Part shown: positions 20,509-26,094 of the stretch, piece after piece
How positions within the stretch are numbered: position 1 is the stretch's first letter
Layout: each line of letters opens with the position of its first letter
Virus record (IMG/VR): IMGVR_UViG_3300008110_000034
Coordinates: 1-64,000 of that record
Source: a virus
Length of the DNA: 64,000 nucleotides
Reading direction: 5' to 3' (one strand)
The notes under the pieces: model-generated
Databases searched by the model: none
Seen by the model: the letters and a program-made list of their open reading frames with translations, nothing else
Told to the model about the DNA's origin: nothing
Position numbers and translations under genes: made by a program

Positions 20509-22185
20509 ATGACTACATCATTACTAAGAAATTATATAGATATTTTAAACGAACAACAATCTAATCAAGTCAAAGTACCTCCAATTCCTGCTCTTCCTCC
20601 AACTGATGGGGAACTTAATGGAGGCGAAAAAGTCTATTCTAATCCCGATGGCACAAGATCATATGCTGGAGCATTTGGCAAATTTACATATGATAAATCC
20701 GGCAAGGCAATAAAATATGCCACTCCTAATCTAGGCGGATTTGGAAAAGAGATTGATTTGCAAACCGGCCTTGTTAATACAGATGCGCAGGTAGGCGACA
20801 TTAAAATGTCTACTAAACAGCGTCCAGATCAGAGCACAGTCACTAGTGCTAGTACTTCTGTTGGTGCTAATACTGTTTCTATGGATCAAGGTATAGGATT
20901 TGGTGGTGCAGGCAAGGATGTTGAACAAGGTGGGAATAAAATTTATAGCGTAACTGGTCCTGATCCAGAAGATAAAAGACAAGAACCAGATAAACAAAGT
21001 TTCGTTGGTAGAAAACCATCGCAACAAGAGCTAGGTGTGTTAATGAAGGAATCTAATAAAATGTCATTAAGAAAATATTTAGATATACTAAATGAAGGTC
21101 CTCCTCCGGGAGTAGGGCCCAATGCTGCTCCTAAAAAACAAGCAGCACCAACTATGCAACAAAGAGCAGATCAATTAGCCGCAGCAGATTCTCAAACAGG
21201 ACAAGGCATGAGAGATATTGAAAAAGGTAATTATGCTGGCGGAGCAGTAGGAGTAGCTAAAGGTGTAAACCAAATGGCCAATGCTGCTGGTTTGTCGTTT
21301 TTAGATAAACTAAAAATGGGCTGGATGTTTGCCAAGGCTGGAGTAAGAGGACTAATCACTGGATTAAAAGCAGGAGATGCCGGTGCAGGAGCAAATGCGG
21401 CTGCTGCTAGTCTGATAGGCGAAGTTATTCCAGAAGTACACAAGTATGTAAATAGTCCTAATTTTGCAAAAGAATTCGAAGCTGGCGTAATGAAGATGAA
21501 GGATAGTCCTGATCCTAAAAATAAAGAAATGTATCAAAAATATATGTCAGGAGAGCTAACTGCTAATAGTTTCAAAGCCTATGTAAATCGTCAATATGAT
21601 GATTATTTAAAGATGCAAAAAGGTCAGAATGCATCAGGAGATGTAGATGATAATATGTATACAACACCTTCTGCTCCTATGAATACTAGTAATTACTCGG
21701 CACAAACTCCGACTCCAGCAGAAGGAATACAATATAAAAATAAAAGTCTTCTAGAGCATATCGAAGAAATAGAAAATGAAGGGTCGTTAAGTTCTGGAGA
21801 TTATTTCCATATAGAACTAGCAGAAGATGAAGGCATTGAAACTTGGGTCATTGCTGAGTGGAGTGAATCTGTATTGATCGAAGCAGACTCTGCTACTCTT
21901 AAATTATTAGAAGAACACGGCTGTACCTTCCATGATGAATTAACAGAAGCAGAATACCAAGGACGCAGCGTGTCATTAGGCAAACCCATGGCTGGCGATG
22001 TTAAAAAATCTAAAGTTTATGTTAAGAAGCCAAATGGCAAAGTAGTTAAAGTAAATTTCGGCGACAAAAAGTTAAGTATTAAAAAACATATTCCTGGTCG
22101 CAGAAAATCTTTTAGAGCAAGACACAATTGTGCTAATCCAGGACCACGTTGGAAGGCACGTTACTGGTCATGCAGAGCATGGTAA
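20509..22185 (+). CDS. Prohead-core/structural protein with several processing-type sites
   Basis: A 558-aa protein. Its N-terminus LLRNYIDILNE recurs as LRKYLDILNE at residues 187-196 and in weaker form (SLLEHIEEIENE) near 412. Each ends in hydrophobic-x-Glu, the cleavage signature of T4 gp21-type prohead protease. The C-terminal 80 residues (ending RHNCANPGPRWKARYWSCRAW in overlapping parts) are of a kind I recognise from T4-like marine phage structural proteins. Central Ala-rich and helical regions fit a core or scaffold. No enzyme motif. Start at ATG 20509 with AAAGGGG Shine-Dalgarno. Confidence 0.6.
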   Translation: MTTSLLRNYIDILNEQQSNQVKVPPIPALPPTDGELNGGEKVYSNPDGTRSYAGAFGKFTYDKSGKAIKYATPNLGGFGKEIDLQTGLVNTDAQVGDIKMSTKQRPDQSTVTSASTSVGANTVSMDQGIGFGGAGKDVEQGGNKIYSVTGPDPEDKRQEPDKQSFVGRKPSQQELGVLMKESNKMSLRKYLDILNEGPPPGVGPNAAPKKQAAPTMQQRADQLAAADSQTGQGMRDIEKGNYAGGAVGVAKGVNQMANAAGLSFLDKLKMGWMFAKAGVRGLITGLKAGDAGAGANAAAASLIGEVIPEVHKYVNSPNFAKEFEAGVMKMKDSPDPKNKEMYQKYMSGELTANSFKAYVNRQYDDYLKMQKGQNASGDVDDNMYTTPSAPMNTSNYSAQTPTPAEGIQYKNKSLLEHIEEIENEGSLSSGDYFHIELAEDEGIETWVIAEWSESVLIEADSATLKLLEEHGCTFHDELTEAEYQGRSVSLGKPMAGDVKKSKVYVKKPNGKVVKVNFGDKKLSIKKHIPGRRKSFRARHNCANPGPRWKARYWSCRAW

Positions 22186-22532
22186 AAGAGATGGATAAAA
22201 TGAACCCTTTAGATATTACAAGAAAAAAAGATAAAGATACATTAGATTTTGATCTAATTGAAGATGTTATCTATTTTATGAACAATGATCCAGAATTTTA
22301 TAGGAAAACCTATTTTCCATTTATTCATAAATTTAAAAGTTATATAGATGCAGGTCGCAGATTAAAACCTGTAGTGTTTGCACCTATGTGTAAAAAGGCT
22401 TTTGATTTATATCAAAATAAATTTCCTCAAGAAAGTATGCATTTAGAATTATCTAAATCAGATTATAAAGACATGTGCGGTAAATTACACGAAAAAGAAA
22501 TGACCAATATTAAAGAGGGTCATTATGATTAA
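22179..22532 (+). CDS. Hypothetical protein in head-core island
   Basis: A 117-aa helical protein. Start chosen at ATG 22179, which overlaps the previous stop by 7 bases; upstream TTG 22149 is less likely. The sequence contains MNNDPEFYRKTYFPFIHKFK and is rich in Lys, Tyr and Met. No family recognised. It overlaps the next gene by 8 bases. Confidence 0.5.
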   Translation: MVKEMDKMNPLDITRKKDKDTLDFDLIEDVIYFMNNDPEFYRKTYFPFIHKFKSYIDAGRRLKPVVFAPMCKKAFDLYQNKFPQESMHLELSKSDYKDMCGKLHEKEMTNIKEGHYD

Positions 22533-23268
22533 TGTAAATGAAGGTGGAAACGTAATTCCAGGTGCTAAAGAAATTAATAAGAGAAATTTCCAAAGTGCAA
22601 TGCAAAATCTTCAACAGGTATTACCAGATGGCATCAATGTCTATCCTATTGGCAGTGCAGGTAAGAAAGAAATCAGTAGTGATATTGATGCACTGATTGA
22701 CGCAAAAGAATTAATGTCAGTTTTTCCTGCAAAAGAATTAAAATTAAGTCGTAAGGCTCTAGAGGACTATTTTAAAGAAAACGGATACTTTGCCGCAAGA
22801 ACAGGTGTTAGTATTCACGTAGGCATTCCTACTGGCGAAGGCGAGGAAATTGTACAAGTTGATCTTATGGCTGTAGAAAATGCTGCTGAAGTCCAACCTT
22901 TACACACTCATGACTACGACGAACCTACAATGAAGGGCGGAACCTTACACGCTATATGGGCAGATTTAGCTAATATGAGTCAACTTCCTGGTCATGAAAG
23001 TCTAATGATGAGTCCTTATAAAGGATTGGTTGATAGAAATACTAAAGAATTAATAACCAGCGATAAAGACAAAATCGCAAAAGTAATTATTGGATCAACG
23101 GCAAGTGCAGATGACATGGGATCACCTAAAAAAATGCTAAAGGCTCTAGAACCATATACTGAAAAGTATCAAGCAATTAAAACAAAATATTTTCCACAAA
23201 CAGAAAGTTATGTTCCTGGAACAACTACTTGGTTTAGGCAAATGATTAATATAGCGAGTGTCCGATGA
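22525..23268 (+). CDS. DNA polymerase beta-superfamily nucleotidyltransferase
   Basis: A 247-aa protein with the Pol-beta NTase signature: YPIGSAGKKEISSDIDALI with G43-S44 and the acidic pair D53/D55, and a third acidic residue D113 in IVQVDLMAV. These are the metal ligands of the superfamily that includes CCA-adding, aminoglycoside and HEPN-linked NTases. The N-terminus MINVNE-GG ends in x-N-E, possibly a processing site. It is followed at once by a ligase-like and then an HxGH-type nucleotidyltransferase. Substrate unknown. Confidence 0.7.
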   Translation: MINVNEGGNVIPGAKEINKRNFQSAMQNLQQVLPDGINVYPIGSAGKKEISSDIDALIDAKELMSVFPAKELKLSRKALEDYFKENGYFAARTGVSIHVGIPTGEGEEIVQVDLMAVENAAEVQPLHTHDYDEPTMKGGTLHAIWADLANMSQLPGHESLMMSPYKGLVDRNTKELITSDKDKIAKVIIGSTASADDMGSPKKMLKALEPYTEKYQAIKTKYFPQTESYVPGTTTWFRQMINIASVR

Positions 23269-24419
23269 AATTAAGAGAATTGTTTGAAGCTGCTGCTCCT
23301 AAAGTTGGTAGAAAATATCAACACGTAGAAGACCTTGTAATTACTAATGGAGTACAGGGCGGGCTTCACGCAGTCGAAAGACTTAGAGATATGGTAGATG
23401 ATCCTAAGACTATTGAATTAAAGTGGGACGGAAATCCAGTAGTCTATTGGGGCAGAGATGCTGAAGGACGGTTTAGTCTTATACCTAAAAATGCTTGGGA
23501 ATACTTAAAAAGAGGCAAGCAGGAATTAGAAAACGGTATTAAAACTGTGATGTACGATCCCGAAGATATAAAAGATTTTATATTAGGCACAGGAAAACTA
23601 GATCCAGCAAAACAAAAAGAAAGAGAAAAGTTTGCTCAAGAAATTTCTGGATTATGGAATTATTTTGAAAAAGCCAGTCCACAAAAGGGATATGTTGAAG
23701 GCGGAATACTTTTTAGACCTGGACAGCCTGGCTGGTCCGGAGATCCTAATCCTTCAACGGGTGAATTTGATTTTACTCCAAATATAACTTCGTTTCATAT
23801 AGGACCAGAATCACAACTATATGAAAAAATTAAAAGAGCTAAAATAATGGTAGCAGTGACCGGCTATTACGAAGAACTTGGTAGCAGTGACGAGTTAAGA
23901 TATCCAGATGCAGAAGCACTCAGCACAGAAGATGTTATAGTTCAAGGTACTACTTACATTGAAAAACTAGAAGGATTAGAAGTTCCAGAATTAGATCAAA
24001 TAGAAGAATACTTAAATAATCCAAAAGTTTCTAGTGCTATTTCAAGGTACTTGTCTCCAAAGCCTGGACTGAGTAATCCGGGAAGTGTTTTATATACGTT
24101 TTTAAATGCTAATCTTAGAAAAAATAATCTTACTCAAGCATTTCAAAGTTGGTCGCCAACAAAATTAAGTGCTGGACAAAATCAAAAAATGTTGTCAGAC
24201 ATGGAAGGATTAGATTCTACTCTAAAAGCTGTAGAGATGCTTACAAATGCTAAAATGAAAGTGATTGCTGCTGCTAGTTTAGGAACACACGGCGGTATAA
24301 GACAAACTAAACCAGAAGGATATGCACAAGCACATCCAGGTAAAAAATTTAAATATGACATTCCTGGTCAATTTATAAAAGCGATTGATCAAGATACTTG
24401 GTCTCCAAAAAAGGATTGA
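23265..24419 (+). CDS. Ligase-like covalent nucleotidyltransferase candidate
   Basis: A 384-aa protein. IELKWDGNPVVYWGRD matches motif I K-x-D-G of RNA/DNA ligases and capping enzymes (K53, D55, G56) with the downstream Arg64; E145 in VEGGILFRPG is in place for motif IV, and KIKRAKIMVAV near residue 190 may be motif V. The call rests on these motifs only. The N-terminus MKLRELFE-AAAPK resembles T4 capsid-targeting sequences. The C-terminal 130 residues are helical and unassigned. It is coupled by ATGA to the Pol-beta NTase. Confidence 0.55.
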   Translation: MKLRELFEAAAPKVGRKYQHVEDLVITNGVQGGLHAVERLRDMVDDPKTIELKWDGNPVVYWGRDAEGRFSLIPKNAWEYLKRGKQELENGIKTVMYDPEDIKDFILGTGKLDPAKQKEREKFAQEISGLWNYFEKASPQKGYVEGGILFRPGQPGWSGDPNPSTGEFDFTPNITSFHIGPESQLYEKIKRAKIMVAVTGYYEELGSSDELRYPDAEALSTEDVIVQGTTYIEKLEGLEVPELDQIEEYLNNPKVSSAISRYLSPKPGLSNPGSVLYTFLNANLRKNNLTQAFQSWSPTKLSAGQNQKMLSDMEGLDSTLKAVEMLTNAKMKVIAAASLGTHGGIRQTKPEGYAQAHPGKKFKYDIPGQFIKAIDQDTWSPKKD

Positions 24420-24420
24420 A

Positions 24421-26094
24421 ATGAAAATTAATAATTTATTTGAAGATTTAACAAGAACAGGCGAGAGTAAAAGTGCAGTAGTAGGCTGGGGACGTGGTAT
24501 GGGACATAAAGGCCACATGTTCTTAGCCAGTAGCGTAGTAACTCATGCAGATGAACTTTCAGCAGATCCGTATTTTGTAGTTAGCAAAACAGTGGGCAAG
24601 GATGATCCAATAACCCCAGAAGAAAAATTAGAAATTTATAAAAAAGTTTTCCCAGAAAAAGGACATATTTTTCAAACTGCTAGCGACGAGATGCCAGACC
24701 TTACGAGAGTGTTATCAAAATTAAATAGTTTAGGCTATGATAATGTTACTGTAGTTGTAGGCGCAGATCAAAAAAAAGCACTGAGCTATGTTCAAAATTA
24801 TAATGGAACTCCTGATAAAAAAGGAAATATTCCATATAGTTTTAAAGAATTGAATGTAATTAGTAGACAAGAAACTAATGATCCTAATGCAGGAGAGGAA
24901 GGACCAAGGGCCACACCAATGAGAGATATATTAAAAAATCCAAATGCAAGCGAAGAAGAAAAATTTAAATTATGGCGATCATCAATGAGCCCCGAATTAA
25001 GCGACCAAGAAGTAAAAGACTTAATGAGTAAGGCTTCGGATCGCATGGGGGAATTCACTGGGAAAAAAGATAAGGTTGCAGAATCAGTAACTCCTGATCA
25101 ATTTAAAAAAACTATGCTTTCTGAAGTAAAAAGACTTGTAGAAGAAATAAAGAAAGACCCTTATATCTCTAAAATGTTAAAAGAAGATAATCAGGATGAA
25201 GACTACTATTATGTAGTTCGTCGTCAGACTGAACAAGACATTGAATTAGAAATGCCTTCAAAGATGTGGACCGGTCTTAAACCTAAACATGCCACATACG
25301 AAGAAGCCAAAGCAGCATACGAAGAACTAAAGAACAAGCATCCTAGAGAAAAGTTCACAGTTACAAGACATCCTAGGACATCTCACATAGGTGGCAAACC
25401 TAATCGAGAGTTTCCAGAAGGTGTGGCGGAAGGCTCTGACAATATTGAACAAATCAAAGCCAAAATTCGAGAGTTAGAAGCAGAACAGGAAGAAAACAAA
25501 TATGGTTCTTTTGCCTATGACAGTGTAGACGCTGAACTGCAATTTTTATACGGAAAGTTAGATAAAATTAAAAAGCAAGGTGTGGCGGAAGGCTCAGATG
25601 ATATTGAGGATACACGACAATGGAGAGATGCTATTGCTTTAGCCAAATCACAAAAGGCGATCCGTCAGGCTCGATATGGCAAAGACCAAAAGTTTTATGC
25701 CGACGGCACACCAGTAACTCCTGAGGAAGTTGCTCGCAGAGCCGCAGAAAGAAAAGCCAAAAAGAAAGGTGTGGCGGAAGGCTCTGGCGGTGCCAGATAT
25801 AAAATAAAAAGCATTGGTAAAGACAAGAACGGTGATTATTACATCAGCCCTAACACAGGCAAAAAAGTTTACAAGAATGCTAAAGTGGGTGATCACGAAA
25901 CTCCACGCGGGGAAGTAAAACCTAATGTGGCGGAAGGTAAAATTAAAATAAAAATTAAACATCCGCCAGAAACTGCTCAAGAAAAGTTATATAAGAAGCA
26001 TCAAGAATTAAGAAAGAAAAGTGGCTTACCTGATCCAGAAGAATATAAAAAGAAAGCAGCCGAGCTGAGCCACCTAAACCAAGAAACTTTGTAG
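24421..26094 (+). CDS. HxGH-type nucleotidyltransferase with modular repeat tail
   Basis: A 557-aa protein. Residues 18-200 form a cytidylyltransferase/NMNAT-like domain (VVGWGRGMGHKGH with GHKGH at 28-32, and VTVVVGADQKKA near 112). The rest is low-complexity and modular, divided by four copies of VAEG. The N-terminus MKINNLFE-DLTR looks like a capsid-targeting peptide. The real start is ATG 24421 rather than an upstream ATG overlapping the previous gene. The natural C-terminus appears to be frameshifted (see 26049-26249). Confidence 0.65.
   Translation: MKINNLFEDLTRTGESKSAVVGWGRGMGHKGHMFLASSVVTHADELSADPYFVVSKTVGKDDPITPEEKLEIYKKVFPEKGHIFQTASDEMPDLTRVLSKLNSLGYDNVTVVVGADQKKALSYVQNYNGTPDKKGNIPYSFKELNVISRQETNDPNAGEEGPRATPMRDILKNPNASEEEKFKLWRSSMSPELSDQEVKDLMSKASDRMGEFTGKKDKVAESVTPDQFKKTMLSEVKRLVEEIKKDPYISKMLKEDNQDEDYYYVVRRQTEQDIELEMPSKMWTGLKPKHATYEEAKAAYEELKNKHPREKFTVTRHPRTSHIGGKPNREFPEGVAEGSDNIEQIKAKIRELEAEQEENKYGSFAYDSVDAELQFLYGKLDKIKKQGVAEGSDDIEDTRQWRDAIALAKSQKAIRQARYGKDQKFYADGTPVTPEEVARRAAERKAKKKGVAEGSGGARYKIKSIGKDKNGDYYISPNTGKKVYKNAKVGDHETPRGEVKPNVAEGKIKIKIKHPPETAQEKLYKKHQELRKKSGLPDPEEYKKKAAELSHLNQETL
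25418..25939 (+). repeat. Four-copy coding repeat aaggtgtggcggaaggctc
   Basis: The 19-base unit is exact at 25418-25436, 25577-25595 and 25766-25784, with a shortened copy (aatgtggcggaaggt) at 25924-25938. Spacing is 159, 189 and 156 bases, all multiples of three. It encodes G-V-A-E-G-S linkers. DNA identity is higher than protein need alone requires, hinting at modular duplication. Confidence 0.8.

Follow-up and report, generated by a model that had tools for sequence, protein, structure and literature searches.

Three consecutive genes of a virus were found to encode nucleotidyltransferases of three different superfamilies and to form a conserved, repeatedly fused unit in related phages. 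Our preferred explanation, held tentatively and at a little less than even chances, is that they are a head-packaged enzyme set which is delivered with the DNA and mends nucleic-acid ends early in infection. The genes lie at 22525-26094 of the window, which comprises the first 64,000 bases of the 180,861-base record IMGVR_UViG_3300008110_000034, where a sequence-only reading had placed them, and are called here P, D and C:

22525..23268, + strand: P, a Pol-beta superfamily nucleotidyltransferase of 247 amino acids (aa), starting MINVNE and then GGN
23265..24419, + strand: D, a K-x-D-G ligase-like nucleotidyltransferase of family DUF6267, 384 aa, starting MKLRELFE and then AAAP
24421..26094, + strand: C, an HxGH (GHKGH) nucleotidyltransferase starting MKINNLFE, with a domain at about residues 1-220 and a long variable tail

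The same reading had the genes coupled by overlaps, which is true of P and D (4 nucleotides, ATGA), whereas D and C are 1 nucleotide apart, taking ATG 24421 as the start of C. The active-site residues that it named, D53/D55 in P, K53 in D and GHKGH in C, were right, and the catalytic residues were invariant in alignments of 29, 35 and 37 relatives, respectively.

IMG/VR scans were seeded by each gene and gave 73 loci for C, the best 80 of 326 for D and the best 80 of 277 for P; the 232 pooled loci include some contigs more than once. P, D and C were all present in 66 of the 73 C-seeded loci, so the neighbourhood is not a matter of chance, and D and C were present in 3 and C only in 4. Among these seven incomplete loci, L031, L057 and L061 start at a contig end, L095 and L096 have D fused to C, and L089 (600-4495) carries two divergent P-like open reading frames (ORFs) in a row 5' of D (profile E 1.2e-6 and 0.036, DxD seen in both by eye), the P-like part of the first being the C-terminus of a 964-aa protein. 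The D-seeded loci comprised 72 of 80 with all three genes, 5 with D and C, 2 with P and D at contig ends and 1 with D alone, as judged by the C profile. Inspection of the ORFs upstream of D in L236, L218 and L238 revealed no P, while the absence of P from L219 was judged by profile only; C of L218, L219 and L238 was identified by profile. The P-seeded loci had the trio in 69 of 80, and the remaining 11 carried P and D on contigs ending just past D. P without D was found in none of the 232 pooled loci.

Gene fusion was frequent. Counting copies as distinct by their D (or C) reading frame (n=129), 42 had the three genes separate, 36 had P and D in one open frame followed by C, 14 had all three in one frame and 12 had P followed by a D-C fusion. 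The rest were P and D (11), D and C (7), a P-D fusion (3), C (3) and D (1).

The co-occurrence that the sequence-only reading had asked for extends to other phages. With D of phage HTVC008M as the tblastn query, D matches were found in 471 of 50,697 phage records, the listed ones being mostly hypothetical proteins, and D and C occurred together in all 17 records looked at. Records chosen by C had D in 5 of 5 (HTVC008M, P-SSM2, S-SSM7, Vibrio 2.275.O and the contig of L096). Phages chosen by D had C in 7 of 7 (Melnitz, ACG-2014e, S-CRM01, S-H9-1, S-SM1, Syn19, S-CAM9) and, in a second set with no member in the search alignment, in 5 of 5 (DLP6, XaC1, C48C1, syn9, XG4). Of the 16 named phages, 12 have the pair no more than about 4 kb apart, and in P-SSM2, S-SSM7, Vibrio 2.275.O and XG4 the distance is about 15 to about 120 kb. 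A homologous DUF6267 / phrog_395 pair, with D then C as in the window, is thus carried by Kyanoviridae cyanophages (where it is T4-GC71 / T4-GC190) and by some further phages. Unlike the window, the cyanophage-type pairs have no P (0 of 11, with a window relative giving a match as positive control), often have a gene with a nuclease-like motif before D, and often have a D lacking a leader. D and C form the wider core, to which the window's group has added P. The single pathway that had been proposed for the three enzymes is partly supported by their co-occurrence, fusions and active sites, but its core is D with C, P being missing from some loci that have both, and the fusions may partly reflect packaging as a polyprotein. 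When the phage collection was searched by tblastn, no match was obtained with the window's own D at E<=1e-5 or its P at E<=0.01, and none of the 178 pattern matches that the D alignment produced on genome contigs was a relative.

The predicted structure of P (predicted local distance difference test, pLDDT, 84.9) clearly indicates a Pol-beta superfamily fold with a family-X palm and thumb. Foldseek matched it to DNA polymerases mu, lambda and beta and to terminal deoxynucleotidyltransferase, DNA polymerase mu being the best (E 3.3e-6), and the structure comparison VIA aligned 161 to 174 residues, ending at pol beta residue 335, with Z reaching 10.5. Residues 12-201 aligned to pol beta 142-335 (root-mean-square deviation 3.3, 161 aligned), a range which we take to be the palm and thumb. 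As to an 8 kDa lyase domain in this chain of 247 aa, the alignments began at pol beta residue 98 in some cases and 142 in others. The earlier assignment of P to a Pol-beta type was correct; P is not a minimal nucleotidyltransferase, since the model has the family-X palm and thumb. D53, D55 and D113 were invariant among the 29 relatives and G43 and S44 nearly so, giving the GS..DxD..D triad. No Pfam family matched P of the window; in its relatives the best nucleotidyltransferase family was NTP_transf_2, weakly and in 7 of the 29 members (E 0.011). The RlaP family was absent from the Pfam matches of the 29 members, although whether the library contains a model for it was not verified.

D matched Pfam PF19782 (DUF6267) at 48.9 bits against a cut-off of 27, and at 30.9 bits, also above the cut-off, in the genome search. 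This was its sole Pfam family at E<=1, and no Rnl1 or Rnl2 profile matched. K53, D55, G56, G352 and K372 were invariant in the alignment of 35 relatives. A wider set of 14 comprised nine sequences from cyanophages and from Pelagibacter and Methylophilales phages, and five from the window together with IMG/VR loci related to it. Its motif residues K, D, G, E, G and K were all invariant; these include E376 and G377 of what we take to be motif IV and K389 of presumed motif V (HTVC008M numbering), the names being assigned by eye. With the predicted structure (pLDDT 88.5), the top five Foldseek rows were RNA or DNA ligases, and, judged by title, 49 of 50 VIA rows were ligases or complexes containing one. 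The highest was a Naegleria RNA ligase (Z 5.9), followed by a trypanosome editing ligase (5.3), a fungal tRNA ligase (5.0), T4 Rnl1 (4.7) and DNA ligases (4.7 and below). Because rows within Z 1 were treated as tied, likeness to RNA or to DNA ligases was left undecided on this ranking. Weakly but consistently, motifs and model point to D as a ligase-like covalent lysine nucleotidyltransferase. In our own reading of the model, helices 242-338 precede the motif IV strands and the chain ends shortly past motif V. A C-terminal OB domain would not fit after motif V, and RNA ligases head the fold matches, although their scores tie with those of DNA ligases; for these two reasons we lean slightly towards RNA rather than incoming DNA as the substrate.

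C matched phrog_395, 'cytidyltransferase', with E 3.7e-11. H29, G31, H32, T165 and R168 were invariant in the alignment of 37 relatives, and R24, G31, H32, G114, D116 and R162 in a wider set of 17, which retains the (T/H)xGH motif. When the P, D and C alignments were searched against the sequences of solved structures, no significant match emerged. The sole PADLOC match was a weak one of C to DruE (E 0.006, 12 bits), judged to be due to chance.

Each protein had also been credited with a possible capsid-targeting leader. According to PMC9026906, T4 gp21 cleaves after L/I-X-E, and IPIII is targeted to the head by its first 10 residues. The record encodes, at 114476-114916, a homologue of the prohead protease, Peptidase_S77 (PF03420; E 2.0e-27). 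Eleven other records, mostly fragments, were searched for a T4-type protease gene, and 5 had one. Junctions were scored as [LIVMF]-x-E (L, I, V, M or F allowed) ahead of the conserved domain, leaving out 10 entries (5 P, 2 D, 3 C) without the anchor motif. Such a site preceded every P (41 of 41 distinct separate copies and 39 of 39 in fusions) and every D (52 of 52 separate, 41 of 41 fused). Under strict criteria the site preceded 41 of 53 separate and 3 of 18 fused copies of C, and under looser ones 51 of 57 separate and 19 of 19 fused, some of these latter matches possibly arising by chance since the slot is wide. The leader claim stands for all P and D tested, but 6 of 57 separate C miss the site.

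The mature domains were in turn poor in such sites. In the pooled sequences 73 were observed against 287 expected in P, 193 against 551 in D and 100 against 314 in C (ratios 0.25, 0.35 and 0.32), compared with ratios of 1.16 for 65 ClpA-like sequences encoded in these loci and 1.19 for the record's 57 ORFs of at least 300 aa; the control patterns [LIVMF]xD and [LIVMF]xK in the pooled P, D and C domains gave 0.93 to 1.23. The window's own P and D domains had 1 site against 5 expected and 3 against 7. Representatives at most 65% identical (6, 7 and 6 sequences) had 6 against 13.6 in P, 20 against 38.1 in D and 10 against 16.5 in C; in 200 shuffles, counts as low as these arose in 0%, 0% and 5%, respectively. 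Site avoidance supports packaging within the window's group only; as a general mark of packaged homologues it fails in the cyanophage C proteins described below. Five C without a leader had 17 sites against 12.5 expected. In the virion of cyanophage S-CREM2, a cytidylyltransferase homologous to C was identified by 3 unique peptides (Table 3 of PMC10665884).

The genomic surroundings of D in other phages also bear on its role. HTVC008M gp129, two genes after D, is a P-loop kinase (Zeta_toxin/AAA_33) that matched an L-seryl-tRNA(Sec) kinase model with E 2.5e-10, under the model's cut-off. The genes preceding D belong to several families, mostly unrelated by BLAST, and share, by eye, P-x-(T/S/C)-D or N-P-A-D followed by x-K, which resembles the PD-(D/E)XK nuclease motif; no function was named by Pfam or PHROGs for those scanned. 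Those with the nuclease-like motif are:

L001, 4517-5575: gene preceding D
L097, 4914-5999: gene preceding D
L101, 5122-5955: gene preceding D
L104, 5255-5995: gene preceding D
L254, 4034-4951: gene preceding D
L098, 4417-5913: gene preceding D
L100, 4367-6010: gene preceding D
L258, 2200-3930: gene preceding D

One capsid-delivered unit is plausible because of the co-occurrence, the repeated fusion, the conserved active sites and the T4-type leader sites, and processing of nucleic-acid ends is indicated by the ligase motifs, the family-X fold, the HTVC008M kinase and the nuclease-like motif before D. In the mechanism that we propose, the prohead protease would trim or split the P, D and C precursors inside the prohead, and the mature proteins would be ejected with the phage DNA. 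P would then add missing nucleotides at a broken end, and D, adenylylated on K53, would seal the ends. C would supply or recycle an adenylated cofactor by chemistry like that of nicotinamide mononucleotide (NMN) adenylyltransferases, or activate an end; its role as cofactor supplier or recycler is a guess. The substrates may be RNA, for example tRNA cut by a host defence, or incoming DNA.

Several observations weigh against this explanation. The activities of P, D and C are all predicted. Structure prediction, proposed earlier as a check, gave a clear Pol-beta fold for P and a ligase-like but weak one for D, with a best Foldseek E of only 0.28 and a best VIA Z of 5.9, below the 8 advised for the tool. 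L050, the seventh of the incomplete C-seeded loci, has C but lacks P and D. The C domain of the window shows no site avoidance (3 sites observed, 3 expected), and the pooled sequences are related to one another, the avoidance in C being marginal among the representatives. The effect was not repeated in C of seven leader-bearing cyanophages (22 sites against 20 expected; C of DLP6, C48C1 and XaC1 was omitted, the anchor motif not being found), and only a weak effect was seen when 15 D from other phages were counted (65 against 80, and 38 against 40 for [LI]xE). The virion evidence concerns C only: the cytidylyltransferase of S-CREM2 may be carry-over according to its authors (PMC10665884), and Table 3 there lists no ORF between 147 and 154, the position of D in S-CREM2 not having been checked. 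No tRNA genes were found by ARAGORN in positions 1-64000 or in the rest of the record (64001-180861). The resemblance of some C relatives to NMN adenylyltransferases, given below, could point to NAD metabolism instead.

The lack of a common pathway is the first alternative: P, D and C could be unrelated capsid-internal proteins that adjoin and fuse through shared packaging and protease processing. We consider this unlikely. It would accommodate the protease-type site kept at the fusion junctions and the variability of C, whose tails range from 0 to 989 aa among 108 distinct ones (some ended by contig ends). Other domains also occur in some C ORFs: a cytidine/dCMP deaminase-like domain in the tail in L236 (7128-9401; Pfam E 3e-6, above cut-off) and a weak peptidoglycan-binding match in the tail at the C place of L195 (E 0.0015, below cut-off). 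It does not account for the presence of D with C in all 17 records, including pairs at least 15 kb apart, nor for the lack of P without D in the pooled loci. Nor does it explain L192 (6352-8553) and L195 (6938-9127), in which a different, canonical HxGH enzyme (GRFQPPHFGH) stands beside D in place of the GWGRGMGHKGH type.

NAD or nucleotide metabolism provides a second alternative, which we regard as distinctly unlikely: an injected NMN adenylyltransferase C would raise host NAD+, with D and P acting on small molecules or being regulatory. The nearest named NCBIfam models for C relatives are indeed NMN adenylyltransferases (best E 7.2e-9 for L095, 2.5e-4 for HTVC008M), and the S-CREM2 authors propose such an NAD role for their cytidylyltransferase (PMC10665884). 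However, every score was below the curated cut-off, and C of the window itself matched no NMN adenylyltransferase model in NCBIfam. Every NadM phage is said to carry NadV in the survey of PMC9503650, while no match to NAPRTase (NadV) was found in our record, which may be incomplete. The ligase motifs and the family-X fold would also be left unexplained.

In an improbable variant of the proposed capsid-delivered end repair, an NAD+-using ligase D would release NMN, C would remake NAD+ from NMN and ATP, and P would fill gaps, all from a protease-cut polyprotein. Such a cofactor cycle would explain the D and C pairing even when the genes are far apart, with P optional. Finally, the Pol-beta, ligase and HxGH folds can all transfer nucleoside monophosphate groups, and a counter-defence that covalently attaches AMP, UMP or CMP to a host protein or small molecule could be imagined. 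Capsid delivery would then resemble that of T4 Alt, which is ejected (PMC9026906), but no AMPylator family appeared in the Pfam, NCBIfam or PADLOC scans and D retains ligase-like motifs IV and V; we obtained no support for the protein nucleotidylation suggested by the sequence-only reading and think this explanation improbable.

Set against known systems, the trio is conserved and unusual, a new form of a known logic of nucleic-acid repair and capsid delivery, and is likely a head-delivered repair set. The earlier statement that it is not described applies to the triad, which was not named in the titles and abstract openings returned by our literature searches, but not to its elements, as a C homologue is known from a cyanophage virion (PMC10665884, above) and pairs of the Pol-beta nucleotidyltransferase RlaP with an ATP-grasp RNA ligase, Rnl1 or Rnl2, have been described for RNA repair in jumbo phages (PMC7824862). 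The trio differs from the RlaP pairs in its HxGH partner, gene fusions and head-targeting leaders, and has no Rnl or RlaP match in the Pfam scans, with the limit on RlaP given above. With T4 Alt and IPI-III it shares short leaders that end at a site of the L/I-x-E type, a prohead protease homologue in the genome and presumed ejection (PMC9026906); here the cargo is three nucleotidyltransferases, and the sites also occur inside fused precursors. NadM/NadR nicotinamide-nucleotide adenylyltransferases share the HxGH motif with C and are the nearest named models for its relatives, but differ in the sub-threshold scores and the missing NadV. African swine fever virus has a small family-X polymerase, PolX, and a DNA ligase in one virus, both packaged in the virion. 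AsfvLIG was among the Foldseek rows of the D model; D has no evident OB domain, and the HxGH enzyme is a third component here. A literature search for DUF6267 found no publication. The family now gains a testable identity as a lysine-adenylating ligase and becomes linked to the widespread, unexplained cyanophage 'cytidyltransferase'. If the proposal is true, many marine and freshwater phages carry repair enzymes in the head as protease-cut precursors, and repair could begin ahead of any phage gene expression.

The remaining features adjoin the trio or lie in the C tail:

22149..22532, + strand: U, a small conserved ORF upstream of the trio, 127 aa from the TTG call, with internal ATG codons
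26336-26770 of the window: a Dps/ferritin-like gene (PF00210) 3' of the trio
25421..25938, + strand: four repeats that code for VAEG, within the C tail; the 14-mer GTGTGGCGGAAGGC is identical in three of them

U had no significant match in the Pfam scan. Of the 225 pooled loci that offered 600 or more upstream nucleotides (loci on one contig being counted separately), 158 had U at most 300 nucleotides 5' of whichever trio gene came first. A Dps-like ferritin lay at most 3.5 kb downstream of C in only 46 of 118 related loci and was ruled out as a constant partner. The ATP-dependent DNA ligase PF01068 had no match in the record and was positive in 6 of 14 control genomes. In syn9 (L258, 4908-7647), S-SM1 (L101, 6932-9518) and Syn19 (L103, 6905-9866), two tandem genes annotated cytidyltransferase follow D. 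The 14-mer would be expected 0.03 times in the window, allowing at most 2 mismatches, and among ORFs of at least 90 aa in the record VAEG occurs in the C tail alone; the repeats are possibly further protease sites. The 11-mer GTGGCGGAAGG is present in 61 of 232 pooled loci, a count for which the chance level was not computed, and its spread suggests conservation at the DNA level or exchange of modules.

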